Shown: one piece after another, positions 1-19,459 of the stretch
Numbering within the stretch: the first letter of the stretch is position 1
Layout of the letters: every line of letters begins with the position of its first letter
Assembly (NCBI RefSeq): GCF_900099735.1
Contig: NZ_FNDT01000001.1
Span: 551,722 to 615,721 of the forward strand
From: Arthrobacter subterraneus
Lineage (GTDB): Bacteria; Actinomycetota; Actinomycetes; Actinomycetales; Micrococcaceae
Direction: 5' to 3'
Length of the DNA stretch: 64,000 nt
The notes under the pieces: model-generated
Databases searched by the model: none
Seen by the model: only the letters and a program-made list of their open reading frames with translations
Told to the model about the DNA's origin: nothing
Position numbers and translations under genes: made by a program

Positions 1-1159
1 AAACCGTCTCGGTGAGATCCGCCGCCTGCTCGACGACGGGGCGAAGCTCGTCGAGTGTGAGTGCATAACCAACCGGTACATCTGCGGTGGACTTGGCGAA
101 GATCAGGCCTGCAACCCGCCCCTGCATATCCAGCAGCGGCCCGCCGGAGTTCCCCTGCTGCACGTTCGCGGCGAGGGTGTAGACGTCGACTGCCGTCGGA
201 TCCGCTCCATAGATGTTTTCGACGAGTACATCGGAACGGTTTTGGACGCTGGCGGGCTGAATCTGGAACGGCCCGCCTGCCGGGTAACCTGCGAATGCGG
301 CGGTGTCTCCCGTTTCCAGCCCCTCACCGAGCGCGAGCGGTGCGCGGTCAAGTCCGTCCACCGCCAGAACCGCGATGTCCCTGACCGGGTCGAAGTAGAC
401 CACATTCGCAGGTACGGCGCCGTTGCCGGGGTACTCGACCACCGGCTGGTTCACTCCCGCCACGACGTGGGCGTTGGTGACGACCCGGCCGGGTGCGACG
501 ACGAACCCCGATCCTGTCTGGTTCTGGCCGCACTGGAACGCGGTGCCCGCGATCCGCAGAACGGAGGCCGATGCAGCCGCCAGTTCCGGGGTGTCCACCG
601 ACGCATCGGGAATGGGCGCCGGAGTTGCGGGCGCTACAGACTCCAGGAGCGTGGGAATGCCGTCGGCGACAGCGATGGAGCGGATCTGTGCCATCCAGGT
701 GCGCACCGGCGACGGCGTCAGCGTATCAATGGTGCCCAGCACCTTCGACGACGCGATGGACTGGGACAGGAACGGCACACCCATGGTGCTCATACTGAAT
801 GCCAGCATGGCCAGGACCAGGGCAGCGACGACGACGTTGGTGGCGCCTCCCAGCAGACGGTCGATCACGCGGACCGGCACCGAGCCCGTCCTGCTGCTGA
901 GCGCACGTCCGAGGCCGGCGCCGAGGGCCTGTCCGATAATGACAAGAAGCAGCGCTGTGGCGATGACCGCGGCCAGTCTCCAGTTGTCCTCGGACACCCA
1001 GGCGCTCACCAGGGGGATGGCGAAGAACGCGGCTACGGCGCCTGCGCCGAATCCGATGATCCCTCCGAGCGTGACGAGGAACCCGTTCTTCAAGCCGGCG
1101 ATCAGGTATCCGATCAGCATCAGGACCAGGAGGATATCCAGGAACGTCAAGCCGAGCAC
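1..1159 (-). CDS. MarP-like membrane serine protease (CvpA + trypsin domain), 3' end outside window
   Basis: The reading frame stays open to the window edge, so the C-terminus is missing; 386 codons are present. The N-terminal ~170 residues are hydrophobic and CvpA/colicin V production-like, with about four membrane segments. A trypsin-like protease domain follows with a complete triad: His in NAHVVAG (about residue 231), Asp in DPVRDIAVL (about 261) and Ser in GNSGGP (about 338). This is the architecture of mycobacterial MarP (Rv3671c), a periplasmic protease needed for acid and oxidative resistance. The GTG start was chosen because AGGGGAG lies about 6 nt upstream and the hydrophobic segment begins immediately. 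It is divergent from the Crp gene across 212 bp. Family assignment is firm; substrate is unknown. Confidence 0.9.
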   Translation of the reverse strand, partial: MLGLTFLDILLVLMLIGYLIAGLKNGFLVTLGGIIGFGAGAVAAFFAIPLVSAWVSEDNWRLAAVIATALLLVIIGQALGAGLGRALSSRTGSVPVRVIDRLLGGATNVVVAALVLAMLAFSMSTMGVPFLSQSIASSKVLGTIDTLTPSPVRTWMAQIRSIAVADGIPTLLESVAPATPAPIPDASVDTPELAAASASVLRIAGTAFQCGQNQTGSGFVVAPGRVVTNAHVVAGVNQPVVEYPGNGAVPANVVYFDPVRDIAVLAVDGLDRAPLALGEGLETGDTAAFAGYPAGGPFQIQPASVQNRSDVLVENIYGADPTAVDVYTLAANVQQGNSGGPLLDMQGRVAGLIFAKSTADVPVGYALTLDELRPVVEQAADLTETV

Positions 1160-1272
1160 GTCACTCCCCTTTCAGGAAGCGCCGTACTTCCCCAACAGGT
1201 TCAATTCTACGTTCCCGGTCCGACAGTCCCCCGACGGGAACGTGATTTACCTTTCCCCTCGGCGAACATGCG

Positions 1273-1288
1273 TGTAGCAGGTGTCACA
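1273..1288. promoter_or_regulatory. Candidate Crp/GlxR operator upstream of crp
   Basis: The 16-mer TGTAGCAGGTGTCACA resembles the Crp/GlxR consensus TGTGA-N6-TCACA: the right half is perfect and the left half matches three of five positions. It lies 84 bp before the crp ATG, in the marP-crp intergenic region, where autoregulation is common in this family. Inferred from motif only. Confidence 0.35.
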
Positions 1289-1371
1289 ACGTCCCCGCGT
1301 ACGGCAAGATGGGGAAAGACGGTAATCTGGCCAGTTTTCATCATGCAGTTGCATTACACCGAGGAGATTTC

Positions 1372-2049
1372 ATGGATATTGAGGTACTGCGCAGGGCGCC
1401 CCTGTTCGCTTCGCTGGGTGACGAGGTCTTTGCGGCACTCACTGATGAGTTGACCGAAGTGGATCTCTCCCGCGGCGCATCAGTCTTCCGGGAGGGAGAT
1501 CAGGGCGACCAGCTCTACTTCATCGTCTCCGGCAAAATCAAGCTTGGCCGCACCGCACAGGACGGCCGCGAGAACCTGCTGGCAATCCTCGGCCCCGGCG
1601 AACTCTTCGGCGAAATGGCACTGTTCGATCCGAGCCCGCGTACCGCAACAGCTACCGCAGTGTCAGAGACCCGGCTCGCAGGCCTGAAGAATGAAAACCT
1701 CCGTGCGCTTCTCGAGACCCGCCCTGAGGTGTCAGCCCAGCTTCTGCAGGCCCTCGCGCGCAGGTTGCGCCGCACCAACGAGTCGCTGGCGGACCTGGTG
1801 TTCTCGGACGTTCCGGGCCGCGTTGCCAAGGCGCTGCTCGACCTCGCGGACCGCTTCGGCAGGCCCGCGACCGACGGCATCCTGGTGGCGCACGAGCTCA
1901 CCCAGGAGGAACTGGCGCAACTCGTCGGCGCTTCCCGCGAAACCGTGAACAAGGCCCTCGCCGAGTTTGTGCAGCGCGGCTGGCTCCGCCTTGAGGCCCG
2001 CGCCGTCGTCATTCTCGACATCCAGCGGCTGCGCCAGCGGAGCCGCTGA
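1372..2049 (+). CDS. crp: Crp/Fnr-family transcriptional regulator (GlxR type)
   Basis: A 225-residue cytoplasmic regulator. The N-terminal cyclic-nucleotide-binding domain carries FREGDQGDQLYFI and the phosphate-binding-cassette-like GELFGEMALFD with PRTATA. The C-terminal winged helix has the recognition helix in TQEELAQLVGASRETVNKAL. It is close in length and motifs to Corynebacterium GlxR and Mtb Crp (Rv3676), global cAMP-responsive regulators of carbon and energy metabolism. The ATG at 1372 was preferred over an upstream in-frame start at 1309 because GAGGAG lies just before it and MDIEV is the usual family N-terminus. It is monocistronic and divergent from the MarP gene. Effector and regulon here are inferred from the family. 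Confidence 0.93.
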   Translation: MDIEVLRRAPLFASLGDEVFAALTDELTEVDLSRGASVFREGDQGDQLYFIVSGKIKLGRTAQDGRENLLAILGPGELFGEMALFDPSPRTATATAVSETRLAGLKNENLRALLETRPEVSAQLLQALARRLRRTNESLADLVFSDVPGRVAKALLDLADRFGRPATDGILVAHELTQEELAQLVGASRETVNKALAEFVQRGWLRLEARAVVILDIQRLRQRSR

Positions 2050-2067
2050 CCCATCCCACTCTTCCCC

Positions 2068-2130
2068 GAACTTTTGCGCATGTCTGGTGGCTTAACCGGC
2101 CGACACGTCGCCGGACGTGCACAAGTGCTC
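2068..2130. repeat. Decayed copy of family-I hairpin repeat
   Basis: The left arm is intact and starts GAACTTTTGCGCATGTCTGG, the same core as the copies at 2152 and 3202. The expected right arm is recognisable only as a degenerate stretch around 2105-2130, where most differences from the ideal complement are transitions. It lies just after the crp stop codon. Probably an old member of the same interspersed family. Confidence 0.5.
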
Positions 2131-2151
2131 CGGGAAGTTACGCACCTCCCC

Positions 2152-2214
2152 GAACTTTTGCGCAGATCAGGCGGGTTCTCGTCGTGGCAAGCCACCCGAG
2201 CTGCGCAGAAGTTC
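2152..2214. repeat. Family-I hairpin repeat (imperfect inverted repeat) at the 3' end of the DUF559 gene
   Basis: Two 26-nt arms (2152-2177 and 2189-2214) pair with about five mismatches around an 11-nt loop. Both outer ends read GAACTT-TGCGCAG. The last codons and stop codon of the neighbouring DUF559 gene lie inside the left arm and loop, so the repeat forms part of the coding sequence and may act as its terminator. Same family as 3202-3264 and 19344-19406. Confidence 0.8.
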
Positions 2215-3150
2215 CGGGATTCCCTGGCGCCAGCCCTGACGTAAGAGCGTCTTCCTGACCTTCGCAACGATCCGCCAGCCACCTTCCTGCAGATCGAGCC
2301 GGTTCAGCTTCACCTGAGCCCACCCGACTTCGGCGACCTTGGCGTCGCGAGCCATATCCCGGGCCTGCTGTTCCGGCGTCAGGTGATGTTCACCGTCGTA
2401 TTCGATGCAGGTTTGGAATGCCTCGCAGCCGAGATCCGTCCACGCGACAATCGATCCATGCCGGTCTCGCAACGGGTAGTTGACCGCAAATTCCGGCAAG
2501 CCGGCGTCTTCCAGAGTCAGGCGAACCAGCGTCTCGGGAGGCGAGTCCACGCCGACCCGCAGGCGGTCTAAAGCCAGCCGCGCCTTCTGGATTCCCCAAC
2601 TCCGTCCGTGTGTCGCCACAAATGCGGACAGTTCGTGCCTGGGCACCATAGCTGTCGTCGGCGGGCCAAAAGAGCGGACGTGCTCGCTCACAATCTGGTC
2701 GCCCGCAACAATCAGATCCTCAAGAGGGAGCACTGTTGCAAGGTCAAGCCAGGTTCGAGAGACGGCAGTAACCGCCACCCCGTCAAACTCGACGACATCA
2801 CCGTCAGAGACATCGAGCCGGTGGCCTGTCACGCCTTTCCTTCGCGGTGCAGCTGACTGCCTGCCGCGTGACAGGTGAAGGCGCTCGCAGGAAATCCAGG
2901 ATGGCAGGTGAATCCCGTGAACCTCTGCCGCAGTCGTATGCGATACGAAACTCCCCGGGAGCAGTTCCACATAGGGCCTGCAACGCGACAGCACCGGTTG
3001 CGCAACGCCGACCGGAACGCGCACTTCGCGGCTCGGGGTCACCAGATCCCTGGCACGCGTTCGGCTCCTGGTCAGGTCCACGTCGAGTGCCTGCCGCAAA
3101 GTGAAGGACCGACCATGAAGTTCCTCGGGCAACTGAGCGTATCGGGGCAT
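2167..3150 (-). CDS. DUF559 endonuclease-like protein
   Basis: A 327-residue protein. The first ~200 residues resemble the helix-rich N-terminal part seen in many actinobacterial DUF559 proteins, with a start like MPRYAQLPEELHGRSF. The C-terminal part (about 220-310) fits DUF559, a Vsr/PD-(D/E)XK-like nuclease fold, with the acidic motifs WTDLG and IEYDGEHH and downstream R and W residues. No adjacent methylase or partner is visible. The gene is bracketed by family-I hairpin repeats: its 5' end lies 52 bp from the perfect hairpin at 3202-3264, and its last 16 codons lie inside the hairpin at 2152-2214. The ATG at 3150 is preferred because longer frames would run through the upstream hairpin. 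Catalytic activity and target are unknown. Confidence 0.75.
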   Translation of the reverse strand: MPRYAQLPEELHGRSFTLRQALDVDLTRSRTRARDLVTPSREVRVPVGVAQPVLSRCRPYVELLPGSFVSHTTAAEVHGIHLPSWISCERLHLSRGRQSAAPRRKGVTGHRLDVSDGDVVEFDGVAVTAVSRTWLDLATVLPLEDLIVAGDQIVSEHVRSFGPPTTAMVPRHELSAFVATHGRSWGIQKARLALDRLRVGVDSPPETLVRLTLEDAGLPEFAVNYPLRDRHGSIVAWTDLGCEAFQTCIEYDGEHHLTPEQQARDMARDAKVAEVGWAQVKLNRLDLQEGGWRIVAKVRKTLLRQGWRQGIPELLRSSGGLPRREPA

Positions 3151-3201
3151 GCTCCATCTCAGCGCATTCCCCGTACGTCTGCGTCCGGTATCCACAGCCC
3201 C

Positions 3202-3264
3202 GAACTTTTGCGCATTTATGGCGGCTTCCCGTGCGGAGAAGCCGCCATAAATGCGCAAAAGTTC
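3202..3264. repeat. Family-I hairpin repeat, perfect 27-bp inverted repeat
   Basis: The arms 3202-3228 and 3238-3264 are exact reverse complements, with a 9-nt loop. The outer end is GAACTTTTGCGCA, shared with copies at 2068, 2152 and 19344; the inner end is TGGCGGCTT. It sits in the gap between the DUF559 gene and the end of the NUDIX gene, both on the minus strand. Perfect arms suggest it is the youngest or most constrained copy in the window. Confidence 0.9.
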
Positions 3265-3328
3265 CGGGAGGTGGAAGGGGCGGAGGACAGAAGGGACGGA
3301 GGCTGGACCTCGACGACGACGGCGGCGG

Positions 3329-4240
3329 CTACCGCCCCCGCTGTTCGGAACCTTCCGTGGCGGTGGAGCATTCCACTTCGACCTGCGGTCCGTCATCGGC
3401 CTCGACCAGTCGGGGCGAGAAAACCTTCATGGGCCGCTTGTGGGACAGGTAGGCGATGCAGCCGCGCGAGGATCCGATCTTTTCAAGGATCAGTTCGACG
3501 GCGGGCACGGTCAGTTCATTCAGGGTGCGGCCGACAGTATTCGGCTGGCCGACCTCGTCGCCGAGCTTTGTGGTATCCCGCTGCCTGATTTCCTCGGCCG
3601 ACCACCGCCACTGCCCCCACACACCCTTGCTGGAAAGGAGGGTCGGTTCCTGGTTGACCGGTTGCGCAGCCGCGAAGTAGCGCGTGTCGAAACGGCGATG
3701 CGCAAAGTCCGGGCTCAGCCACGCCGAGAGCGGCTTGATCAGATCGGTGCGCAACCCGAGAGCACGCTTCGACAGGATCTCCGCGAAGGTCTTCTCACCG
3801 GCAGCGATCGCCTCGCGGGCTTCCATCCACTGCGGGTGACGGGTTCCCTCGACAAGGCTGGAGGCATCCGGACCGGCCAGCAGCACCCCTGTTTCCTCAA
3901 ACAGTTCGCGGATGGCGGCAACAACAAAACGCCGCGCCACGTGGTGATCCTCAGTGGCAAGCGCCGCCGCCCACTGGGCAGGTGAGGGACCAAACCAGGT
4001 GACGGGGTCGTCGTCGTGCTCTTCCACGCTGCCGCCGGGGAAGGCGACGACGCCCAGCGGAGACTCCCCGCGGCGGTAGGAGAGGTAGACCTCCGTGCCC
4101 GCCGGGGCATCACGGATCAGCACGACCGACGACGCCGGCCGAGGCTTTACGGGGGTACGCTCGCCATGGTCGATCCAACTGCGGGCGGCGCCCTGCTGCT
4201 CTTCCGGGACTGGGAAGAGCCTGGTGCTTGAGCGATTCAC
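3329..4240 (-). CDS. NUDIX hydrolase (NUDT7/8/19-like)
   Basis: A 303-residue hydrolase. The Nudix box is split: FPGGSVEEHD at about 67-76 and RELFEETGVLL at about 111-121, separated by a roughly 35-residue insertion. That spacing is typical of CoA- or acyl-CoA-diphosphatase-like members, in which the REx2EExG part supplies the metal-binding glutamates. All key acidic residues are present. The gene ends 4 bp after the RidA gene and is probably co-transcribed with RidA and DUF4177. Mtb has a NUDIX gene in the same general neighbourhood (MarP to PonA2). The substrate is not determined by sequence. Confidence 0.88.
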   Translation of the reverse strand: MNRSSTRLFPVPEEQQGAARSWIDHGERTPVKPRPASSVVLIRDAPAGTEVYLSYRRGESPLGVVAFPGGSVEEHDDDPVTWFGPSPAQWAAALATEDHHVARRFVVAAIRELFEETGVLLAGPDASSLVEGTRHPQWMEAREAIAAGEKTFAEILSKRALGLRTDLIKPLSAWLSPDFAHRRFDTRYFAAAQPVNQEPTLLSSKGVWGQWRWSAEEIRQRDTTKLGDEVGQPNTVGRTLNELTVPAVELILEKIGSSRGCIAYLSHKRPMKVFSPRLVEADDGPQVEVECSTATEGSEQRGR

Positions 4241-4244
4241 GAAA

Positions 4245-4727
4245 CTAGATGAACTCCGCGATTATTTCGACTTCGACGGGCGCATCCAATGGTAGTACGG
4301 CAACACCCACCGCGGAACGGGCGTGGGCACCCGCTTCACCGAACACCTGGCCGAGGAGCTCGGATGCACCGTTGATGACGCCGGGCTGGCCGGTGAAAGA
4401 CGGGTCCGAGGCCACGAAACCGACCACCTTGACGATGCGGCTCACGCGATCCAGGTCACCGATCTGGGACTTCACCGCGGCCATGGCATTGACTGCGCAG
4501 GTGGCCGCATACTCCTTGGCCTGCTCCGCGCTTATATCACTGCCGACCTTGCCCGTAGCTGGGAGTTCGCCATTAATAAACGGAAGTTGACCAGAGGTGT
4601 AAACGTAGTTGCCGGACACCACGGCCGGGATGTAGGCCGCTACCGGCGCTGCCACCTCCGGGAGCGTAATTCCCAGGTCCTGAAGCCTGCTCTCAACGGC
4701 TGACACCGCTTCATTGGCGCTGGTCAC
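4245..4727 (-). CDS. RidA/YjgF/YER057c/UK114-family protein
   Basis: A 160-residue cytoplasmic protein of the RidA superfamily. It shows the N-terminal stretch SGNYVYTSGQLPF, the central DLDRVSRIVKVVGFVASDPSF and the C-terminal VEVEIIAEF. RidA members hydrolyse reactive enamine/imine intermediates of PLP enzymes, but this longer actinobacterial subgroup (like Rv3678c) is not well characterised and the catalytic arginine of classical RidA is not obvious here. The GTG start overlaps the DUF4177 stop codon by 4 nt (GTGA), showing translational coupling. Confidence 0.9.
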   Translation of the reverse strand: MTSANEAVSAVESRLQDLGITLPEVAAPVAAYIPAVVSGNYVYTSGQLPFINGELPATGKVGSDISAEQAKEYAATCAVNAMAAVKSQIGDLDRVSRIVKVVGFVASDPSFTGQPGVINGASELLGQVFGEAGAHARSAVGVAVLPLDAPVEVEIIAEFI

Positions 4728-4885
4728 GACGCGTTTTTCTCCCTCTTAAGATAAGCAACGAGACCGTTGCCGTCGGGGCCGGGAACTACCTGCACCAGTT
4801 CCCAGCCGTCCTCACCCCACTGGTCAAGGATCTGCTTGGTGGCGTGGATGATGAGCGGAATTGTGGCGTACTCCCATTTGGTCAT
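4724..4885 (-). CDS. Small DUF4177-family protein
   Basis: A 53-residue protein beginning MTKWEYATIPL and containing GEDGWELVQVVPG, the hallmark of DUF4177, then ending shortly after AYLKREK. No membrane segment is visible. It is the first gene of the small operon DUF4177-RidA-NUDIX on the minus strand, and its stop overlaps the RidA start. The same pair (Rv3678A-Rv3678c) is adjacent in Mycobacterium. Function is unknown. Confidence 0.85.
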   Translation of the reverse strand: MTKWEYATIPLIIHATKQILDQWGEDGWELVQVVPGPDGNGLVAYLKREKNAS

Positions 4886-4922
4886 GACTCACAGGGTAGC
4901 GCGTGCTTGTAAACTGGAGTAC

Positions 4923-7253
4923 ATGGCTGCTCGTAAATCTCCTTTCTTTGACACGGCAACCACCCTGGGGAAAATCATTGCATTTCTTGGAATCAGTGGA
5001 TTGAGTGGGGTGCTTGCTGCGGGTCTTCTGGTGCCCGTGGCTGCTGCCGCCGGCACTGGCGCGTCGGCGTCCATTCAGTTCTTCGAGAATCTTCCGGCTG
5101 AGCTGGAGCGCGGTGCGCTCGCCCAGCCGTCCAAGATCGTCGCCTCCGACGGCTCGCTGATCGCGACGCTGTACGAGGAGAACCGTCAGCCCGTCACGCT
5201 GGACCAGGTCTCCGAAAACATGACGGATGCGCTGATCGCCATCGAAGACGACGCGTTCTACGAGCACGGCGGCGTGGATCTGCAGGGCATCATCAGCGCC
5301 GCCATCAGCAACATCAGCAGCGACACCACGCGCGGGGCCTCCACCATTACCCAGCAGTACGTCAACAACGTCCTGATTGACGCGAGCATGCGCACCGGCG
5401 GCGACATCACCTTCAGCGGCCAGAAGACCCTGGGCGACAAGCTGCGCGAGGCCAAGCTTGCCATTGCAGTGGAGAAGGAGCTGAGCAAGGACGAAATCCT
5501 CGCCGGCTACCTCAACATCGTGCCGTTCACGGGCAATACCTACGGCGTCCAGGCTGCCTCCAAGTACTTCTTCAACGTCGAGGCGAAAGACCTCAACATC
5601 CAGCAGGCTGCGCTCCTCGCCGGTGTGGTCAACGGCCCCACCTTCTACAGCCCGGAGCTCTACCCGGAGCGCTCGCTGGAGCGCCGCAACCTCGTGATCG
5701 GCCGCATGCTCGAGACCGGCAAGATCACGCAGGAAGAGTACGACGCCGCCGTCGCGTCCGATCTCGGACTGAACATCACGCCCGTCCTCAACGGCTGTGT
5801 CGGTGCCGAGCAGGCACCCTACTTCTGTGACTACGTCACCCATCTGGTCCTCAACGATCCGGCGTACGGAGAGACCCGCGAGGATCGAGAAAACCTGCTC
5901 TACCGGGGCGGCCTCACCATCAAGACCACCCTGGACGCACGGGCCCAGGCGGCCGCGCAGACCGCCGTCAACGAGACAGCCAACCGCGAAACCACGGACG
6001 CCGCCGTGGGCCACTCGATGGTGAGCCTGCAGCCGGGCACCGGCAACATCCTCGTCATGGCGCAGAACACCCGGTTCATGCCGGGAGAGACGGCCGGCGA
6101 TTCCGTCCTGAACTTCAACGTCGACCAGTACGCCGGCGGTGACCCCAACAAGCCGGTGGGCGGGCTGGGCGGATACCAGCCGGGATCGACCTTCAAGCCA
6201 TTTGTCGTGGCGGCCTGGCTTGAGGATGGCCGCTCCCTGAACGCCATGGTCGACGGCAGCAAGAAGAAGTATGAACAGGGTGAAACCTGGGAAGCCAGCT
6301 GCCTGCCCGGCGGGGAGTACGTCCTCCCCGACGAGGAAGGCTACGAGCCGCAGAACTACGGCGACATCAACTACGGCAACTACACCGTGCTCGAAGGTCT
6401 TGCTCAGTCCTACAACACAGTCACCATGTACACCGCAAAAGAGGTGGATCTCTGCAAGCCCTTCGAGATCGCCTCGAAGCTTGGAGTCCACGACGGCAAG
6501 AGCGCCAGCGGGGAATACACGCCGCTCCAGGTGCAGCCGTCCGCACTGATCGGCGGCGGCAGCGAAGTTGCCCCGATGTCCATGGCTACCGCGTTCGCTG
6601 CACTGGGAGCCGAGGGTCTCACGTGCGAGCCCCGGGCACTCACCGAGGTCACCGCCGTCGACGGAAGCACCTTCCCCGTCCCGCAGCCGGAATGCGAGCA
6701 GGTCATTCCCAAGGAGCTTGCACGCGGAGTCAACTACGCGACCCAGGAAGTGATGGAGCGCGGCTCAGGCCAGCTGCTGGAGTTCGGCGACATTCCGATG
6801 GCAGGCAAGACAGGCACCAACGACGCCCGGTCACAGACCTGGTTTGTGGGTTACAACTCGGCCATGGCCACGGCCAGTTGGGTGGGCAACTGGAAGGAGA
6901 ACAGCACCTCGCTGTCCGCCCTCCGGATCGGCGGACGGGTCTACGAGGAGATCGACGGCGCATTCGTCGCCGCACCCTCATGGGCCCGCTACATGCAGCA
7001 GATCCAGGGTTCGTATCAGCCGGAACCTTTTGCCGACCCGCCGTCCAACATGCTGGTCCAGCGCCCCCTGCAGCCTTCGCCGAACCAGCCGACGCCGCAG
7101 CCGACCGCGCCCGGGCAGCCGCTGAACAACAACGGCTTCCAGCAGTTCGTTCCGGCGCCGCCTGCAGGCAACACCCTGCCCGTCACCCCGCCGGACAATT
7201 CGGGGAACAATGGGAACGGTAATGGCAACGGCAACGGTGGAGGCAATGGCTGA
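4923..7253 (+). CDS. Class A penicillin-binding protein (glycosyltransferase + transpeptidase)
   Basis: A 776-residue bifunctional peptidoglycan synthase. A membrane anchor at about 15-45 is followed by a GT51 domain with the catalytic motif EDDAFYEHGGVD, then GASTITQQY and KLREAKLAIAVEKELSK. The transpeptidase domain has PGSTFKPF (Ser about 422, Lys about 425), SYN and KTGTND. The tail is rich in Pro, Gln, Asn and Gly and looks unstructured. ATG 4923 is chosen over an upstream in-frame start because GGAG lies about 6 nt before it and the longer N-terminus is non-homologous. The gene is followed 2 bp later by a metallophosphoesterase, as with ponA2-Rv3683 in Mtb. No C-terminal PASTA repeat is visible. 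Confidence 0.95.
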   Translation: MAARKSPFFDTATTLGKIIAFLGISGLSGVLAAGLLVPVAAAAGTGASASIQFFENLPAELERGALAQPSKIVASDGSLIATLYEENRQPVTLDQVSENMTDALIAIEDDAFYEHGGVDLQGIISAAISNISSDTTRGASTITQQYVNNVLIDASMRTGGDITFSGQKTLGDKLREAKLAIAVEKELSKDEILAGYLNIVPFTGNTYGVQAASKYFFNVEAKDLNIQQAALLAGVVNGPTFYSPELYPERSLERRNLVIGRMLETGKITQEEYDAAVASDLGLNITPVLNGCVGAEQAPYFCDYVTHLVLNDPAYGETREDRENLLYRGGLTIKTTLDARAQAAAQTAVNETANRETTDAAVGHSMVSLQPGTGNILVMAQNTRFMPGETAGDSVLNFNVDQYAGGDPNKPVGGLGGYQPGSTFKPFVVAAWLEDGRSLNAMVDGSKKKYEQGETWEASCLPGGEYVLPDEEGYEPQNYGDINYGNYTVLEGLAQSYNTVTMYTAKEVDLCKPFEIASKLGVHDGKSASGEYTPLQVQPSALIGGGSEVAPMSMATAFAALGAEGLTCEPRALTEVTAVDGSTFPVPQPECEQVIPKELARGVNYATQEVMERGSGQLLEFGDIPMAGKTGTNDARSQTWFVGYNSAMATASWVGNWKENSTSLSALRIGGRVYEEIDGAFVAAPSWARYMQQIQGSYQPEPFADPPSNMLVQRPLQPSPNQPTPQPTAPGQPLNNNGFQQFVPAPPAGNTLPVTPPDNSGNNGNGNGNGNGGGNG

Positions 7254-7255
7254 TC

Positions 7256-8191
7256 GTGGCGACAACTAGAGACGGCGCCCGCACCGCCGCAGCGCTCACC
7301 CTTGGTGCAACCGCGGCGGCGGGCGTCGCCACTGTGGGGTACGCAGCGTTCATTGAGCGGAACCTCTTCGGCCTTCGCGAGGAGTCGCTTGCGATCCTGC
7401 CGCCGCGTAGCCGCCCCCTCCGGGTGCTGCACCTTTCCGATATCCACATGGTGCCAAGGCAATCCGCGAAGTCAAAGTGGCTGCGGGGACTTGCCGATCT
7501 GAAGCCCGATCTGGTGGTCAACACCGGCGACAACCTCAGCCATCCCAAGGCGCTCGCTCCCCTGCTTGACGCTCTGGAGCCGCTGCTCGATTTCCCGGGA
7601 GTATTTGTTCCCGGCTCCAACGACTACTACGCCCCGCGGATGCTCAACCCCTTCCGGTACCTGAGCGGACCGTCCTCCACCAACGGATCAAAGCCGCTCA
7701 AGGAACTGCCGTGGCAGCAGATGTTCGCCCGGTTCGGCTCGGCCGGCTGGGTTGACCTCACCAACCGCTCCCAGTCCGTCGCTCTTCGCGGCCTGCGGCT
7801 GGATTTCAGCGGCGTGGATGACCCGCATCTGAACCGGGACCGATTTGCCGGGTTCCCGGCCGGGAGCAGCACCGCAGCCGAGGCACCGCACCTTCGGGTC
7901 GGCGTCGCGCATGCTCCGTACCAGCGTGTTCTGGACACCTTCACCGACGCCGGGGCACACCTCATCCTTGCAGGCCACACCCACGGCGGTCAGGTGTGCA
8001 TTCCCGGGTATGGGGCGCTCGTCAGTAACTGTGATCTGCCCACCTGGCGCGCCCGCGGCCTGACCCAGTGGGAGCACAACGGCAGCACCGTTCCGCTGAA
8101 TGTGTCCGCAGGTATCGGTACGTCCCGGTTCGCACCAGTCCGTTTTGCCTGCCGCCCCGAAGCAGTATTGCTGACGCTCACGTCCCGCTGA
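7256..8191 (+). CDS. Metallophosphoesterase (calcineurin-like)
   Basis: A 311-residue protein with a short N-terminal hydrophobic segment (about 10-32), suggesting membrane association. It has the full set of binuclear metal motifs: LSDIH (about 60-64), NTGDN (about 89-93), GSNDYY in place of the usual GNHD, and GHTHGG near residue 245. The GTG start lies 2 bp after the ponA stop, so the pair is translationally coupled. The conserved ponA-phosphoesterase linkage across actinobacteria suggests a cell-envelope role, perhaps on a lipid-linked phosphate, but the substrate is not known. Confidence 0.9.
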   Translation: MATTRDGARTAAALTLGATAAAGVATVGYAAFIERNLFGLREESLAILPPRSRPLRVLHLSDIHMVPRQSAKSKWLRGLADLKPDLVVNTGDNLSHPKALAPLLDALEPLLDFPGVFVPGSNDYYAPRMLNPFRYLSGPSSTNGSKPLKELPWQQMFARFGSAGWVDLTNRSQSVALRGLRLDFSGVDDPHLNRDRFAGFPAGSSTAAEAPHLRVGVAHAPYQRVLDTFTDAGAHLILAGHTHGGQVCIPGYGALVSNCDLPTWRARGLTQWEHNGSTVPLNVSAGIGTSRFAPVRFACRPEAVLLTLTSR

Positions 8192-8307
8192 GTTCCCGGG
8201 TCCACCGGAACGCAAAAACGCGCGCGCCATGCACTCCCTGACATAGGATAGTTGCTGGGGGACACGAAATTTCGGCTCCCTCACGTCTCCAACTTCGAGA
8301 GAAGAGC

Positions 8308-10134
8308 ATGCCGACGCAATCTACACTGTGGGAGTCCCTCAGGCGTCTCTACCCGCACCTCCGACCAATCCTGCCGCGGCTGGTACTGGGGCTGTTTGCC
8401 GCGCTCGGGGCCAGCATCATGGTCCTGGCGATCCCGCAGGTGTTCCGGGTGCTCGTCAATGACGCACTCGCCGAGGGCCAGTCCGCCGCGACGGTGTGGA
8501 TAGCTTCCGGGATTGTCCTCATGCTCGGTGTGCTGGAGGCTGCCTTCGTGGCCATGCGCCGCTTCTTCGTCATCAATCCAGCCACCACCGTGGAAACCAA
8601 CCTGCGGACGTCCTTCTACCGGCACCTGCAGAACCTTGCCATAGCCTTCCACGACCGCTGGGGCAGCGGCCAGCTGTTGTCCCGCGCCATGACCGACCTG
8701 AACCTCATGCGGCGCTGGATGGCCTTCGGCGCCATCATGCTGGTGGTCGACTCGATCACCGTGACCGCCGGGGTGGCCATCATGTTCTTCATGAGCTGGC
8801 CGCTCGCGCTCATCTTCCTCGCTGCAGCAGTCCCGGTCATGATTTATGGCTTCCGTTTCCGGACTTCCTACAGCCGGGTCTCCCGCAAGAGCCAGGACCA
8901 GGCGGGTGACCTCGCGACCACCGTGGAGGAGTCCGTCCACGGGATCCGCGTCCTGAAGGCGTTCGGCCGGAGCCGCGAGGCTCTCGACGCGTTCAGCGAC
9001 CAGGCCGAGGAACTCCGCGAAACCGAGATTCACAAGGCGAAGAGCCTTGCCACCTTCTCCCTGATCGTCACGCTCCTCCCCGAACTGGCGCTCGGGGCAT
9101 CGCTGGTCACCGGCATCGTGCTTGCGGCAAACGATGCCGTGACCATCGGCAGCCTCGTCGCATTCTTCGCCACCGCGGGGGTGGTGGCCGGGCGCGTGGA
9201 ATTCATCGGTCCGCTCCTGGCCATGACCTTCACCGCCAAAACGGCGATCGACCGCCACTACGAGGTCATGGAGTCTGAAAACACCATCACCGATCCGGCA
9301 AGAGCCCGGAGCCTCACCGACCCGCGTGGAGAGGTGACGTTCGACGACGTCCACTTCCGCTACCCGGACGCGGTAGATACCTCCGCATCCGTCATCAACG
9401 GTGTGGACCTGACACTGCGGGCCGGAGAGACCATGGCACTGGTGGGGATCACGGGATGCGGCAAGAGCACGCTGCTGCAGTTGGTGCCCCGGCTCTACGA
9501 CGTCACCGGGGGCGCCATACGCATCGACGGCATCGACCTGCGCGAGTTCAGCCTCTCCGAACTGCGCCGCCACGTGGCCGTGGCCTTCGAGGACACCACG
9601 CTGTTCTCGAACTCGGTCCGCGAAAACGTCCTGATGGGTGCGGATCCCCGGAACGACGACGACGCCGAGGCAATCCTTGCGGAGGCCCTGGACGTGGCGC
9701 AGGCACACTTTGTGTATTCACTCCCCGACGGCGTTGACACCCTGATCGGCGAAGAAGGCCTGAGCCTTTCCGGCGGGCAGCGGCAGCGCCTGGCCCTGGC
9801 ACGCGCCATCGCCGCGAAGCCGAAGGTGCTCGTGCTCGATGACCCGCTGTCCGCACTCGACGTTCGCACCGAGGAGCTGGTGGAAGAGCGGCTCCGTGAG
9901 CTCCTGGCGGACACCACCACCCTGATCGTCGCGCACCGGCCCTCGACCGTTGCACTGGCGGACCGGGTGGCGCTGATGGAGAACGGCCGGATCGCCGACG
10001 TCGGCACCCACACCGAGCTGCTGGCGCGCAGCGATCATTACCGTTACGTCATCGCCAGCCTGTCCGATGAGCCAGTCGACCTGGACAGTGAGCTGGAAGA
10101 GCTCGGCCGCAATGACCAGGAGGCGCGCGCATGA
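8308..10134 (+). CDS. ABC exporter half-transporter, subunit with degenerate ATPase site
   Basis: A 608-residue fused permease/ATPase. Six membrane helices fall in about residues 20-320 and the nucleotide-binding domain in about 345-590. Walker A is GITGCGKST, the signature is LSGGQRQR, and Walker B is [12 protein letters not shown], where the usual catalytic Glu is Asp. The stop overlaps the next gene by ATGA. An Asp at the catalytic position combined with an intact signature is characteristic of the first subunit of heterodimeric exporters such as TM287/288, in which one composite site is non-hydrolytic. Substrate is unknown; multidrug or lipid export is typical. Confidence 0.92.
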
Positions 10135-11993
10135 GCACCGAACCGAAGGAGAACAGCCGTGTGACGACCGACCGGCCGTCGTCGTCGGGCATTTCCTCGG
10201 GCGTCACCAACGAGGACGAGGTGATGCTGGACCGCGCGCAGAACAAGTCGGTGCGGTCCCGGTCCTTCAGGCTGCTCGGTTCGCTGATCCGACCCAACCG
10301 CAGGCAGTTCATCTGGACGGCCTTCCTGGTGGTCTTCTCGCAGATTGCCCGGGTGGCAGGGCCCGCCATCATTGCCTTCGGGATCGACCACGCTCTGCCC
10401 TCGCTGCTGCAGGGCGATCCGGCGCTGCTCTGGGCTGCCGGCATCACCTACCTCGTAGCCGCTGTGCTCGCGGCTACGCTGACGGCCGGCTACGTTCTCG
10501 CCGCCGCCCGGTTGAGCCAGGCGATGCTTCTGGATCTCCGTCTGCGGGTCTTCCGGCACACCCAGCGGCTCAGCCTCGAATTCCACGAGAAGTACACGTC
10601 GGGACGCATCATTTCCCGCCAGACTTCAGACCTTGAAGCGCTGCGCGAGCTGCTTGACTCCGGCGTGAGTTCACTGGCATCCGGCCTGATGTACATGATC
10701 TTCACTGCCGTCACCATCTTTGTGCTGGACTGGCCTACCGGGCTGCTGATCCTCGTCGCGGCCATCCCCATGACGTTTCTGGCCCGCTGGTACCAGAAGC
10801 ACTCGCAGATCGCATACCGGTCATCGCGGGTGGTATCGGCCAGGCTGATCGTCCACTTCATTGAGACCATGACCGGCATCCGCGCGGTCAAGGCGTTCCG
10901 CCGCGAGAAGGTCAACGCCGACCGCTACGACGAGCTCGCCGAGGATTACCGCAAGGTGACGGTGCGCTCGATCAACCTGAACGGTGTCTTCCAGCCCGGC
11001 CTGGTGCTGATCGGCAATGTAACCGTGGCCGCTGTGCTGCTGTTCGGCGGGTTCCGCGTCCTGGGCGGGTCCCTCGAGGTCGGCGCGCTGCTGGCCCTGC
11101 TGCTCTACAGCAAGCGGTTCTTCCAGCCGGTGGACCAGATGGCCATGTTCTACAACTCGTTCCAGTCCGCTGCCGCGGCGCTGGAGAAGGTCTCCGGACT
11201 GCTGCAGGAAGTTCCGACCGTGCGTCCGCCGAAGAACCCGGTGCCGCTGAAGAATGCCCAGGGCCGGATCGAGTTCGACGGCGTGGAGTTCCGCTATGGG
11301 GACGGTCCCGTCATCCTGCCGCGCCTGGATCTCACCCTTCCCGCGGGTCAGACCGTGGCCCTCGTCGGCCAGACCGGTGCGGGAAAGTCAACACTCGCCA
11401 AGGTGATCGCGCGGTTCTATGACGTCTCGGAAGGCCGTGTGACCCTGGACGGGGTGGATCTGCGCCAGCTGGCGCCGCAGGACCTGCGCCGCGCCGTCGT
11501 CATGGTCACCCAGGAGGCCTTCCTGTTCAGCGGGAGCGTGGCGGACAACATTGCGCTCGGCAAACCGGAAGCCAGCCGTGAGGAGATCGAAGGCGCTGCG
11601 CGGGCCGTGGGTGCGCATGAGTTCATCACCTCGCTGCCGGAAGGTTACGACACCGACGTGAACAAGCGGGGCGGGCGCGTTTCTTCCGGCCAGCGGCAGC
11701 TGATCAGCTTCGCGCGGGCCTTCCTCGCCGATCCGGCGGTACTGATTCTCGACGAGGCGACGTCATCACTGGACATCCCCAGTGAGCGCCTGGTCCAGCA
11801 GGGACTGCAGAAACTGCTGGGCAACCGGACTGCGCTCATCATCGCCCACCGGCTCTCGACGGTGGAGATCGCCGACCGCGTGCTGGTGATGCACGACGGC
11901 GCCGTGGTGGAGGACGGCACGCCCGCCGACCTGATCAGCGGTACGGGCCGTTTCGCGACACTCCACGCTGCCTGGCGGGACTCACTGGTGTAG
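10131..11993 (+). CDS. ABC exporter half-transporter, subunit with canonical ATPase site
   Basis: A 620-residue fused permease/ATPase. A hydrophilic N-terminal extension of about 45 residues precedes six membrane helices and the ATPase domain. Walker A is GQTGAGKST, Walker B is [12 protein letters not shown] with the catalytic Glu, but the signature is VSSGQRQ instead of LSGGQ. This is complementary to the upstream subunit, so each heterodimer would have one consensus and one degenerate site. Start and upstream stop overlap by 4 bp. It is followed by tRNA-Pro on the same strand. No regulator is adjacent, so the inducing substrate cannot be guessed. Confidence 0.92.
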
Positions 11994-12062
11994 TTCGTCA
12001 CCGGCACATTTGTCCGTTATCCTTGAGAGGTTGCTTTCGCGGCTTGCCCGGGACAGCACAAT

Positions 12063-12139
12063 CGGGGTGTGGCGCAGCTTGGTAGCGCGCGTCGTTCGGG
12101 ACGACGAGGCCGCAGGTTCAAATCCTGTCACCCCGACCA
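12063..12139 (+). tRNA. tRNA-Pro (anticodon CGG)
   Basis: 77 nt including an encoded CCA. The acceptor stem CGGGGTG pairs with CACCCCG. The anticodon stem CGTCG/CGACG encloses loop TTCGGGA with anticodon CGG, and the T arm contains GGTTCAAATCC. The cloverleaf is complete. A strong terminator begins about 10 nt later. Confidence 0.95.
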
Positions 12140-12148
12140 CACACGAAA

Positions 12149-12226
12149 ACAAAAGCTGCCCACCGAGTTGCACTACTCGGTGGGCAGCTTTTGTGTATGC
12201 CCACTGAGCTGCTCAACCCAGTGGGC
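12149..12226. terminator. Double-hairpin bidirectional terminator between tRNA-Pro and purC
   Basis: A perfect 20-bp inverted repeat (12149-12168 with 12174-12193, core GCTGCCCACCGAGT) ends in TTTTGT on the plus strand and has AAAA on the other side, so it can end transcription from both directions. A second 8-bp hairpin (GCCCACTG at 12199 with CAGTGGGC at 12219) follows. The two genes are convergent. Confidence 0.85.
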
Positions 12227-12242
12227 AATCGGTGTCTATTTA

Positions 12243-13109
12243 TCAGCTGAACGTCCGCCCCGTCAGCCGCTCGTAGGCCTCGATGTACCGGGCGCGGGTT
12301 TTCTCGACCACCTCGGCCGGCAGGGCAGGCGGGGCTGACACGCGGTCCCAGCCGGCGTCGTCGGACGTGAGCCAGTCCCGGACAAACTGCTTGTCGAAGG
12401 AGGGCTGCGCCTTGCCCGGAGAGTACAGCTCAGCATCCCAGAACCTCGAGGAATCCGGCGTCAGCACCTCGTCCCCGAGGGTTACCTCGCCGGAGCTGGA
12501 CATCCCGAACTCCACCTTGGTGTCCGCGAGGATGATCCCACGCTCCCGCGCAATGGACTCCGCCCGGGCGTAGATATCGAGTGTCAGGGACCGGAGCTTT
12601 GCCGCGAGGTCATCGCCGACCATCATGACCACGGCGTCGTAGGTGATGTTCTCGTCATGCTCGCCCACTTCGGCCTTGGCTGACGGCGTGAACAGGGGCT
12701 TGTCCAGCCGCGATCCGTCCACCAGGCCGTCCGGCAACGGCAATTCACACACCGTCCGCGACTCGTTGTATTCGGCCAGCCCGGAACCGGTCAGGTACCC
12801 GCGGGCGATGCACTCGACCGGATACATCTCCAGCCGTTGGCAGATCATGGCGCGACCGGCCACCTCGGCCGGAACATCGGTGGACAACACATGGTTGGGG
12901 ATCCCCGTGAGCTGCTCGAACCACCACAGGCTCAACTGGGTGAGGACCCGGCCCTTGTCCGGGATCTCGGATGACAGCACAAAGTCATAGGCGCTGATCC
13001 GGTCACTGGCTACCACCAGTACGCGGTCGTCCTCCCCTGTCACTGGTTCGTAGAGGTCCCGGACCTTGCCCGAGTAGATGTGTTGCCAGCCGGCAAGTTC
13101 CTGTGCCAT
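12243..13109 (-). CDS. purC: Phosphoribosylaminoimidazole-succinocarboxamide synthase
   Basis: A 288-residue enzyme that joins aspartate to CAIR to give SAICAR, with ATP hydrolysis, in purine synthesis. Seen directly: the N-terminal YSGKVRDLYE nucleotide-binding loop, ASDRISAYDFVL, ECIARGYLTGSG and LADTKVEFG. Length is as expected for the long PurC form used by actinobacteria. It starts 2 bp after the purD stop, so the two form an operon read leftwards. The shared terminator at 12149-12226 ends it. Confidence 0.96.
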   Translation of the reverse strand: MAQELAGWQHIYSGKVRDLYEPVTGEDDRVLVVASDRISAYDFVLSSEIPDKGRVLTQLSLWWFEQLTGIPNHVLSTDVPAEVAGRAMICQRLEMYPVECIARGYLTGSGLAEYNESRTVCELPLPDGLVDGSRLDKPLFTPSAKAEVGEHDENITYDAVVMMVGDDLAAKLRSLTLDIYARAESIARERGIILADTKVEFGMSSSGEVTLGDEVLTPDSSRFWDAELYSPGKAQPSFDKQFVRDWLTSDDAGWDRVSAPPALPAEVVEKTRARYIEAYERLTGRTFS

Positions 13110-13111
13110 TC

Positions 13112-14401
13112 CTACGCTCCGCCCGTCGCCGAAACAACCACTTCACCGCGCGCGGCCTTCGCAGCGATGTCCGTGCGGTACTGGCCGCCTTCGAGCGTCA
13201 GGCGACTCACGCCGTCGTACGCCCTGTCGCGCGCCTCCGCAAGGTCGGAACCGAGCCCGACGACGGCGAGCACCCGCCCGCCGGACGACACCACTGCGCC
13301 GTCCCCGGCAAGCGCGGTGCCGGCATGGAGTACGGATACCCCCTCGAGGGCGGCGGCATCCTCCAGCCCGGAGATCGGATCGCCGGTGCGCGGTGCGTCC
13401 GGGTAATTCGCGGAAGCAAGCACGACGGCGACAGCAGCTTCGGAGGACCAGTGCAGGTTGTCGACGGTCTCCAGTTCGCCCTTCGCGGCAGCGAGGAGAA
13501 CCCCGCCCAGCGGGGTCCTGAGCCGGGCGAGGACCGCCTGGGTCTCCGGATCACCGAAGCGTGCGTTGAACTCGATAACCCGCAGCCCACGGGAGGTCAG
13601 GGCCAGCCCGCAGTAGAGAACGCCGGTGAACGGCGTGCCGCGGCGCGCCATCTCGTCAATGGTGGGCTGCGCCACGCGCTCAAGAACCTCATCCACCAGA
13701 CCGGCGGGAACCCATTCCAGGGGTGAATAGGCGCCCATGCCGCCGGTGTTGGGGCCCTCGTCATTGTCGAAGATGCGCTTGAAATCCTGGGCCGGGGCGA
13801 GCGGCACTACGGTGGAGCCGTCCGAGAGGACAAAGAGCGAGACCTCCGGGCCGTCAAGGTACTCCTCGATGACCACGGTGCCGCCGGCGTCGAAGCACGC
13901 CTGCGCATGGTTCAGGGCTGCGGTGCGGTCGGAGGTCACCACCACTCCCTTGCCCGCCGCGAGCCCGTCATCCTTGACGACGTAGGGTGCACCGAAGGAA
14001 TCCAGTGCCTCTTCGGCTTCGGCCGCTGTGGAGGCGACCTTCGCCATCGCCGTGGGAACCCCGGCGGCAGCCATGACCTGCTTCGCGAACGCCTTCGACG
14101 CCTCGAGCTGAGCAGCCGCCTTCGTGGGACCGAAAACGGGGATCCCCGCCTCGATCAATGCGTCCGCAACACCCGCAGCCAATGGAGCTTCCGGACCCAC
14201 CACCACCAGGTCGGAGCCTAGCGAGACGGCCAGCTCCGTGACGGCTGCCGGGTTGTTCGCATCGATGCTGTGCGCCGGGACGTCCTGGGCCATTCCGGCG
14301 TTTCCCGGTGCTGCATGCACCTCGCTCACAAAGGGATCGGCGAGGAGAGCTCGGACAATGGCGTGTTCGCGGCCTCCGGGGCCAATCACAAGAACCTTCA
14401 C
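13112..14401 (-). CDS. purD: Phosphoribosylamine-glycine ligase
   Basis: A 429-residue ATP-grasp ligase converting phosphoribosylamine and glycine to GAR. The N-terminal MKVLVIGPGGREHAI, the ATP-grasp region with PYVVKDDGLAAGKGV, and the signature RFGDPETQ are all present. The family's usual length is 420-430. First gene of the purD-purC operon; no upstream operator was recognised in the 150-bp gap shared with the oxidoreductase gene, which contains a hairpin repeat instead. Confidence 0.96.
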   Translation of the reverse strand: MKVLVIGPGGREHAIVRALLADPFVSEVHAAPGNAGMAQDVPAHSIDANNPAAVTELAVSLGSDLVVVGPEAPLAAGVADALIEAGIPVFGPTKAAAQLEASKAFAKQVMAAAGVPTAMAKVASTAAEAEEALDSFGAPYVVKDDGLAAGKGVVVTSDRTAALNHAQACFDAGGTVVIEEYLDGPEVSLFVLSDGSTVVPLAPAQDFKRIFDNDEGPNTGGMGAYSPLEWVPAGLVDEVLERVAQPTIDEMARRGTPFTGVLYCGLALTSRGLRVIEFNARFGDPETQAVLARLRTPLGGVLLAAAKGELETVDNLHWSSEAAVAVVLASANYPDAPRTGDPISGLEDAAALEGVSVLHAGTALAGDGAVVSSGGRVLAVVGLGSDLAEARDRAYDGVSRLTLEGGQYRTDIAAKAARGEVVVSATGGA

Positions 14402-14451
14402 AGTAGTTCAGGGTACTGGCTGACTCCTGTGCCAAAGTAATGACTACGGAA

Positions 14452-14510
14452 GTTTTTGTCGCGGTTCTGCTGCCAAGACGCCTGGATAACAGCAGAACGG
14501 CGACAAAAAC
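14452..14510. repeat. Family-II hairpin repeat (21-bp inverted repeat)
   Basis: Arms 14452-14472 and 14490-14510 pair with one mismatch around a 17-nt loop. The outer end is GTTTTTGTCGC and the inner end is GTTCTGCTG. It lies between the divergent purD and oxidoreductase genes, so it is not a terminator for either. Its layout (two ~21-27-nt arms, poly-T-like outer part) resembles family I, but the sequence differs. Confidence 0.8.
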
Positions 14511-14552
14511 TGCAACACCAATACGTGAAGCCGCCCTCTCCGAACACTTGGT

Positions 14553-16160: not shown

Positions 16161-16190
16161 CACTTCAGCCGGATGCGCAATACTTGAAGC

Positions 16191-17195
16191 ATGCCCTCCA
16201 TTTTCCCCTCGTCCAGCGCGGTTGACCTCGCGGTCCTGGAGCGTAACGGCTTCATCGAGTCCCGCCACATCGGCTCCGCCGTGGTGCTCGCGGCTGACGG
16301 CTCCACGGTCACGGAACTCGGCGACGTGAATGCGCCCATCTTCCCGCGCTCCACCCTGAAACCGTTCCAGGCCCTTGCCGCCATGCAGGCCGGAGTCCCG
16401 CTGCGGGGCGCGCAGGTAGCCCTCGCGGCGGCGAGCCATGTGGGCAGCCACGAGCACATGGATGTGGTGAAGTCCATGCTGAGCGCGGCGGGCGTCACGG
16501 AGGATGACCTGCAGTGCCCCGCCGACTGGCCGCAGGACGAGGAAGCCCGCAACTGGCTCATCCGCACCGACAAGGGGCGCCGGCGGGTGGCGTTCAACTG
16601 CTCCGGTAAGCACGCCGCCTTCCTCTGGGCCTGCACCGAGAATTCGTGGGACCACAAGACGTACCTCGACCGGGCCCACCCGCTGCAGCAGCGCATCGCC
16701 GCCGTCATCGAGGAATACACCGAAGAGACGGTGGAGCACTGGGCGGTGGACGGCTGCGGCGCCCCGCTCGGCGCAGTCTCCCTCACCGGGCTGGCCCGCG
16801 GCATCGGCAAGATCGCCAAGGCACCGGGTGACAAGAACGCCGATGCCCGCGCAGCCACCATCGCCACGGCCATGCTCGACTACCCGTGGGCGGTCCACGG
16901 CCACGGCCGCGAGAACTCCGTGGTCATGGAAGACCTCGGGATCCTGGCCAAGAACGGCGCCGAGGGCGTCCTCGTGATGGCCGCTCCCACCGGCGTCTCG
17001 ATGGCGCTCAAGATCCTGGACGGAAACATCCGCGCCACCACCCTGGTGGGCCTGACCCTCCTTGCCGCCTCCGGCGCCCTCGACGCCGAGGACGTGGCAC
17101 CCGTGCTGGAGAAGGTTGTGCAGCCCGTGCTGGGCGGCGGTGTTCCCGTCGGCAGGCTGCGTCTCGCCGCTCCGGTCATGGCGCTGCTGGACTGA
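16191..17195 (+). CDS. L-asparaginase II family protein (Rhizobium etli type)
   Basis: A 334-residue enzyme of the COG4448 asparaginase group, unrelated in fold to E. coli AnsB. The serine-lysine motif RSTLKPFQ (about residues 52-59), the central AFNCSGKHAAFL and the VDGCGAPLGAVSL motif match the ReAII family, whose members hydrolyse L-asparagine. The fold is of the beta-lactamase type. It has no signal peptide, so it should act in the cytoplasm. The next gene begins 2 bp after its stop, suggesting an operon with the SCP2-like and DUF2079 genes. Confidence 0.88.
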   Translation: MPSIFPSSSAVDLAVLERNGFIESRHIGSAVVLAADGSTVTELGDVNAPIFPRSTLKPFQALAAMQAGVPLRGAQVALAAASHVGSHEHMDVVKSMLSAAGVTEDDLQCPADWPQDEEARNWLIRTDKGRRRVAFNCSGKHAAFLWACTENSWDHKTYLDRAHPLQQRIAAVIEEYTEETVEHWAVDGCGAPLGAVSLTGLARGIGKIAKAPGDKNADARAATIATAMLDYPWAVHGHGRENSVVMEDLGILAKNGAEGVLVMAAPTGVSMALKILDGNIRATTLVGLTLLAASGALDAEDVAPVLEKVVQPVLGGGVPVGRLRLAAPVMALLD

Positions 17196-17197
17196 CC

Positions 17198-19023: not shown

Positions 19024-19042
19024 TGCCCGGTAGCCTTGAATC

Positions 19043-19336: not shown

Positions 19337-19343
19337 CCCTCCG

Positions 19344-19406
19344 GAACTTTTGCGTACCTTTGGCGGCTTCGACCGTGCGCAACCCACCAGAGCTACACGA
19401 AAGTTC
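19344..19406. repeat. Family-I hairpin repeat upstream of purF
   Basis: Arms 19344-19369 and 19381-19406 pair with six differences in 26 positions, two of which allow G-U pairing in plus-strand RNA and two more in minus-strand RNA. Outer GAACTTTTGCGTA and inner TGGCGGCTT match the copies at 2152 and 3202, about 16 kb away. It follows the small membrane protein gene and may terminate it. Confidence 0.8.
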
Positions 19407-19459
19407 GCAACATAGCGCATCAGGAAGAGACCCCCGGTACGCCGTGAGAGAATGTAGCA

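Follow-up and report, generated by a model that had tools for sequence, protein, structure and literature searches.

A nuclease gene of Arthrobacter subterraneus, predicted to be of AbiEi-Vsr/EDxHD-like type, is bracketed by long hairpins of one family, and lineages of this gene have hairpin sequences of their own, diverging in step with the proteins. We interpret this as a two-part system, made up of the nuclease gene and palindromes that its product would recognise, in a partnership of the REPtron kind, a reading to which we give a probability of about 60%. The original prediction for this DNA had pointed out the bracketed gene and suggested either an actinobacterial analogue of the REP/RAYT arrangement or a passive insertion target; lineage-specific hairpin sequences that differ with the proteins were not anticipated by it.

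Results

The nuclease locus and its hairpins

The window (the whole stretch of 64,000 nucleotides that was analysed) contains the following features:

2167..3150, minus strand: nuclease gene (predicted AbiEi-Vsr/EDxHD-like; the DUF559 gene of the original prediction), an open reading frame of 327 amino acids plus stop
2151..2215, no strand: 3'-flanking family-I hairpin, holding the nuclease gene's last 15 codons and stop
3201..3265, no strand: 5'-flanking family-I hairpin, a nearly perfect palindrome with a stem reaching 3191-3275
2067..2131, no strand: decayed member of family I, with the Crp-type gene on one side and the 3' hairpin on the other (covariance model 42.5 bits, weak folding)
19343..19407, no strand: solo family-I hairpin elsewhere in the window, at a site that is empty in six compared relatives
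1309..2049, plus strand: left neighbour, a Crp-type regulator (Pfam cNMP_binding and HTH_Crp_2), used for synteny
3329..4240, minus strand: right neighbour, used for synteny, with no Pfam match at E<=1e-4; we take it to be Nudix-like

The predicted hairpins at both gene ends and the decayed third copy were all recovered by pattern search and covariance model, with cores at 2151-2215, 3201-3265 and 2067-2131. CGAACTTTTGCGCA was found on the plus strand at 2067, 2151 and 3201, with opposite arms at 2202-2215 and 3252-3265 (window pattern search), and covariance-model matches covered window positions 2064-2134, 2148-2218 and 3198-3268. The stop codon lies inside a hairpin as predicted, preceded there by 15 codons and not by the 16 that had been claimed. 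The arms of the hairpin at 3201-3265 (3191-3228/3238-3275) are 92% complementary, and its folding as single-stranded DNA reached a z score of -11.5 against shuffles, compared to -3.6 for 2151-2215. The score of the 2067 copy (-1.0) is consistent with calling it decayed, and the solo copy at 19343 (0.1) folded no better than shuffles. G021 likewise has two copies on the 3' side of the gene. The Crp-type and Nudix-like neighbours mark a conserved site and are outside the system. Two more strong stems, of 20 and 22 bp, were observed in the window at 12149-12194 and 14451-14511; the former is directly behind a tRNA, and counterparts of it were seen in the blocks of G034 and G024.

Family-I hairpins are numerous in this genome. 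In the window, the 14-mer with at most three mismatches gave 10 matches versus 4.0 expected, a number reached by none of 100 shuffles, and in the whole genome the 13-mer with at most one mismatch matched 30 times versus once for the reversed pattern. R1, a covariance model built from 19 family-I copies of this genome (G000), gave 70 strand hits, that is 35 places, on the 3.87-Mb genome and, because of its G000 origin, under-counts diverged relatives. In the aligned copies the outer approximately 13 bases per arm are nearly constant, and the inner stem varies together with its partner: both sides had changed in 13 of 28 pairs (reached by 25 of 500 shuffles), with 39 covarying cells versus 19.5 in shuffles (0/500). 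A second family of the same layout showed weaker covariation (18 cells versus 10.7, reached by 1 of 500 shuffles; 5 covarying pairs versus 4.7, 296/500). Homogenisation arm by arm could mimic this pairing signal.

The encoded protein

The predicted gene is present, with a correction to its DUF559 assignment: the Pfam match of the window protein to PF04480 was below threshold (16.3 bits; cut-off 20.6). The match to MTES_1575 was also sub-threshold (16.7 bits; cut-off 38.2), and 17 of 59 relatives matched DUF559 at E<=0.01. The PADLOC AbiEi model matched all 59 aligned members, at residues 65-140 in the window protein. The AF2 model of this protein (pLDDT 91) has fold matches to 6y8q and 3r3p, and only the tail 312-326, which is the part encoded inside the 2151-2215 hairpin, was listed with a pLDDT below 50. 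In this predicted structure an AbiEi-like half, recognised by fold and by models, is joined to a half with the catalytic-domain fold of Vsr and EDxHD homing nucleases. Residues E206, D239, H256 and D265 are invariant in the 59 sequences and, judging from their order and not from a structural alignment, are probably the Vsr/EDxHD motif residues (motif name from the available part of PMC3943268). With Foldseek alone, no PDB entry reached E<=0.001 (best 1zel, E 0.0026), the PDB sequence search gave a weak match to 3hrl (E 0.031), NCBIfam had no name for the window protein (PRK09767 in 5 of 59 relatives) and Pfam found no Y1 match in it. In G002 the nuclease gene (L069, 7534-8507) is split over two frames, yet this genome has 74 family-I strand hits.

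The AbiEi similarity would also suit a defence protein of the anti-phage or toxin-antitoxin kind, for which the hairpins would be self-marks, decoys or regulatory RNAs, and rapid turnover of the recognition sequence would be in keeping with an arms race. We regard this as very unlikely, because neither of the two adjoining genes matched an AbiEii toxin family at E<=1e-4, no Rfam family was found at the hairpins at gathering score (window 1-20000, where the only match was the tRNA at 12063-12136) and the dispersal of hairpins behind unrelated genes is left unexplained. The same Rfam search ruled out known RNA families.

Bracketing across the gene family

A protein-only scan of named genomes returned 210 encoding stretches, of which the best 80 were used; their titles point to Micrococcaceae as the presumed source of all except L137, which is from an Acidobacteria MAG. 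Duplicate genomes (the same genome under a handle and under its name) were used once where noticed, and six loci were left out. With a stem finder blind to gene position, 82 hairpins were found within 200 bp of these 80 genes (32 kb) versus 95 in the remaining 1176 kb of flanks, a 32-fold enrichment. Among these best 80 of 210 loci a hairpin was present upstream in 43, downstream in 39, on both sides in 32 and on at least one side in 50. Flanking hairpins have a median length of 61 nt (10-90%: 57-65); their centres lie 106 bp before the aligned coding start upstream (median; IQR 98-112, n=43) and 13 bp past the stop downstream (median). Background stem peaks at -4.4 kb and +1.6 kb include many terminator-like ACGACGGCGG stems.

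With a further 15 loci (95 in all, L184 left out), 50 of 95 loci had matched hairpins on both sides, compared to 0 of 357 control positions within this set of loci. The co-occurrence of gene and hairpins that the original prediction proposed to check is thus real, and together with the flanking enrichment it upholds the suggested REP/RAYT analogue; that the protein acts on the hairpin is something we infer. When the flanks were aligned to each other with no stem condition, 73 of the 95 loci exceeded the 99th percentile of 496 controls and 63 their maximum, which leaves 22 with no matched flanks above that percentile. Grouped by neighbourhood, the 95 loci form 25 sets, and a matched pair occurs in 15 of these; one set consists of nine loci that all lack a matched pair and all belong to the 22. 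Among distant relatives (26-38% identical), 8 of 20 exceeded the control maximum and 12 did not. Outside the family but within the order, L060 and L065 have paired hairpins on both sides, and most of the other loci examined there have one or none. Furthermore, no stem with a score of 12 was seen within 500 bp of L031 or L032, the DUF559 matches of this genome that are clearest above the Pfam cut-off. In L096, which belongs to the nine-locus neighbourhood, three tandem copies of one hairpin (GTACAGATAACGGGG) lie downstream of the gene, in place of a single one on either side.

According to the passive alternative, terminator-like or REP-like repeats settle behind any gene and the nuclease gene merely adjoins them, and in its favour 17 of 21 solo hairpins are at most 80 bp away from a gene end, where random placement gives 20%. 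The passive insertion target offered in the original prediction is not supported. The passive alternative as a whole is already contradicted by the 32-fold enrichment at one gene family, also upstream of the gene, by the lack of matched pairs at the controls and by the hairpin likeness that follows protein identity (see below), and we consider it hardly credible. Additionally, no terminator-like site was found in window 1900-3500 and a T or A run was present at only 4 of 83 flanking hairpins, which also rules out plain terminators.

Hairpins and proteins change together

The likeness between upstream (U) and downstream (D) hairpins was analysed in 96 loci, 52 of which have a hairpin on both sides. 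Own U-D likeness was 34.7 versus 9.7 between loci, a difference reached in none of 10,000 permutations, and the own partner ranked first in 32 of the 52 loci. In the largest orthologous neighbourhood, where 10 of 20 loci were usable, the own U-D value was 34.8, compared to 12.4 for orthologous U-U and 12.1 for orthologous D-D pairs, and the own partner was best in all 10. In two other neighbourhoods, in which orthologues are still alike, the effect was smaller: the own partner was best in 5 of 11 and 2 of 11 loci (permutations 0 and 4 of 5000), and in the window's own neighbourhood, with 3 of 7 loci usable, own U-D likeness failed to beat permutation (806/5000). The U and D loops agreed at 7 or more of 9 positions in 12 of 47 loci, versus 4% expected.

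For the co-divergence analysis, L090, L109 and L068 were dropped beforehand and 49 loci remained. Hairpin likeness rose from chance level, where proteins were less than 50% identical, to 21 at 60-70% and 38.5 at 80-90% identity. The Mantel test over the 49 loci was significant (0/2000), with a weak relation below 50% identity (88/2000).

Dispersed copies also differ between genomes. In G021, 25 of 36 arms of 18 hairpins carry TCGTGC, and TTGCGC is the commonest form in G000 (16/38), G002 (19/44) and G034 (24/36); the G021 variant was seen even though R1 came from G000. Over whole hairpins (15 places of G021, 18 of G034 and 20 of G002 plus flanking copies), identity was only 0.02 higher within genomes than between them (0/2000), and no higher within G000 than between G000 and G021.

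The orthologous site in relatives

The site between the Crp-type and Nudix-like genes was taken from 20 of the 37 genus members found; 19 were readable on both sides (20 with the window), and in G028 it is unreadable, being split between contigs. The nuclease gene is present in six genomes (G000, G002, G021, G030, G016 and G074; 1153-1573 bp between the neighbours), twelve sites lack it (41-372 bp) and two genomes (G010 and G005) have another gene there. In G010 this is a bacteriorhodopsin-like gene (L180, 1257-2126; Pfam 6e-39), and L183 of G005 is bacteriorhodopsin-like by DNA likeness to G010. This intergenic site is perhaps a preferred insertion place.

At E<=0.01, R1 found hairpins at four of the five carrier sites fetched, with a weak match in G074 (E 0.15), where the protein is 55% identical to that of the window and the flanking hairpins have different outer arms (CCGAAGAGTTAGATCTGGCG...). 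As to the check proposed with the original prediction, whether orthologous loci lacking the gene lack the hairpins too, R1 found no family-I hairpin at 13 of the 14 orthologous sites without the gene. The exception is G008, with a family-I hairpin (44 bits) at the gene-less site and its own gene elsewhere (L089). The presence or absence of the entire unit at this site, and its occurrence in 25 neighbourhoods, would also fit an IS-like element in which hairpin, gene and hairpin move as a unit of about 1.1 kb and solo hairpins are internally deleted, MITE-like derivatives; we hold this to be quite unlikely.

Dispersal and matching enzymes

Family I was found in all seven genus members with a close relative of the gene (>290 bits; 4-74 strand hits) and in 6 of 28 other members (1-58 strand hits), the other 22 having none. 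Of these six, five have 1-20 strand hits. The sixth, G034, reaches 58 (about 29 places) in a genome where no close nuclease was found, and most plausibly represents an orphan hairpin population. Two further families follow matching enzymes. For family 2, the 13 carriers of the type-A enzyme (>=60% identical) have 19-50 strand hits versus 0, 0, 0, 3, 11 and 16 in six non-carriers (p 0.0004), and for family 3 the 13 type-B carriers have 6-48 versus 0-12 (median 2) in 17 non-carriers (p 4e-6), although both p values ignore phylogeny and carriers share ancestry. Non-carriers with family-2 or family-3 hairpins include G071, G068 and G065, and both enzymes occur together with both families in G057 and G064.

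Solo hairpins are present in some species and absent from others as units. In syntenic blocks, G000, G002 and G021 have a hairpin at C24:547672 where G034, G004, G024 and G022 have an empty site. At window 19343 a hairpin is present in G000 alone, the six other genomes being empty there, and at C24:650670 G000 and G021 share one that G034 lacks. G000 and G034 share a weak copy at C24:675620, for which there was no third genome to compare; it is one of four family-I places (with one of G021 and two of G002) that gave no empty site or comparison. No target-site duplication was readable at the empty sites, where the flanks of the compared species are mostly about 80-90% alike. Of this genome's 32 solo copies 21 were examined, and 11 of these are located between the ends of two converging genes. 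We ruled out action in trans by a RAYT/IS200 enzyme, as Y1_Tnp (PF01797) at E<=0.001 matched in none of 32 genomes, that of the window included, and in 5 of 14 controls.

Other hairpins were also observed. A further dispersed family (GGCAGGACAC) brackets the L080 gene in G024 (C10:29796 and 33815) and is solo in G000 (C24:506711) and G004 (C1 ~2793112), where the window-protein search found no close L080 relative. Hairpins of the form CAAAAGTGCCGG...GGATCGTGGGG are solo in G002 (C1:9251), G022 (C95:35216), G034 (C1 ~986550) and G004 (C1 ~2705845), and also lie behind the distant (31%) gene relatives L248 and L261. Hairpins with inner GCCGGTTCGAAGCGGC occur in G000 (C24:692141 and 698599) and G021 (C1 ~2834904), and L259 of G008 is bracketed by stems with a similar centre.

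Discussion

Nuclease and palindrome are taken here as partners, and the nuclease as the spreading and homogenising agent, because the layout and habits are those of a REPtron, no Y1 enzyme was found and the palindrome has a size that would suit a dimer of such a protein. In this regard, AbiEi-type proteins bind 23-bp inverted repeats, according to the consulted part of PMC7319586, and the portion seen of PMC3943268 describes I-Bth0305I as dimerising on nearly 60 bp, so that a palindrome of 57-65 bp with arms of 24-28 bp would suit an AbiEi-EDxHD dimer. The AbiEi-like half could bind a palindrome arm, probably as a dimer on both arms, and the Vsr/EDxHD-like half could nick or cut there, whether the palindrome is a duplex, a cruciform or a folded single strand. 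Once cut, a palindrome would be repaired or copied, and this would spread copies to intergenic sites, mostly behind genes, and keep the copies of a genome alike, so that nuclease and palindromes would change together; the palindromes flanking the gene would be the source copies. Binding, cutting, copying and spread, and the order of these events, are what we infer. That a homing-type nuclease and not a transposase drives mobile palindromes in this way, with co-evolution of enzyme and repeat across Micrococcales, is a tentative proposal that we put somewhat short of even odds.

The upstream palindrome may double as an operator. Its constant distance from the coding start would also suit a purely regulatory explanation: the protein would be an AbiEi-type autorepressor and the hairpins only its binding sites, an operator upstream and regulated or buffering sites elsewhere, alike by selection without any mobility. 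In line with this, the part of PMC7319586 covered states that AbiEi and Rv2827c act as repressors by way of inverted repeats located upstream of the genes that encode them. A copy at the stop codon, dozens behind other genes and many between converging gene ends are, however, poor operator positions, U and D loops agree beyond chance in a quarter of loci, the nuclease half has retained its invariant E, D, H and D, and solo copies are present or absent as units, all of which makes a regulon without mobility unlikely.

REP-type repeats are widespread, and in the literature covered, seen in part, they are linked to no enzyme other than RAYT, a Y1 transposase. Full-text searches of open-access papers found no report of a nuclease-palindrome pairing. 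If the proposed partnership is true, an unrelated nuclease would have the same genomic habits and the partnership of enzyme and palindrome would have arisen more than once. The hairpin repeats found in Arthrobacter and its relatives would also gain an enzyme, and recognition and spread would become directly testable on dozens of natural protein/site pairs.

Among known systems, Caulobacter VsrA shares a DUF559/Vsr-like nuclease domain with the protein described here, and unlike it has a proposed role in mismatch repair tied to a cytosine methyltransferase (accessible text of PMC12907096, in whose main text no word starting with "palindrom" was found). AbiEi antitoxins and Rv2827c differ from our system in that here no toxin gene adjoins, a nuclease half is added and the repeats are also downstream and genome-wide. 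With respect to EDxHD homing endonucleases (I-Bth0305I) and Vsr, the nuclease half is joined here to an AbiEi-like half and tied to dispersed palindromes, and an unsystematic look noticed no intron or intein context at the window locus. The REPtron enzyme is a Y1/HUH transposase, whereas here it is a predicted AbiEi-Vsr/EDxHD-like protein; REP palindromes have 20-40 bp, compared to 57-65 bp with a stem of about 24-28 bp here; and the GTAG tag at the palindrome foot is not conserved: of 19 aligned copies only 4 contain GTAG or its complement, at varying positions that include a foot just once. CGTC REPs are said to be without a dedicated enzyme in the available text of PMC3733652. As far as the parts seen of PMC3733652, PMC3116915 and PMC8266576 go, the REP/REPIN-RAYT systems, best known from Gammaproteobacteria, are like the present one in having an enzyme gene with cognate palindromes beside it and dispersed between genes, in showing no sign that the gene itself moves, and in tying each enzyme to its own palindrome.
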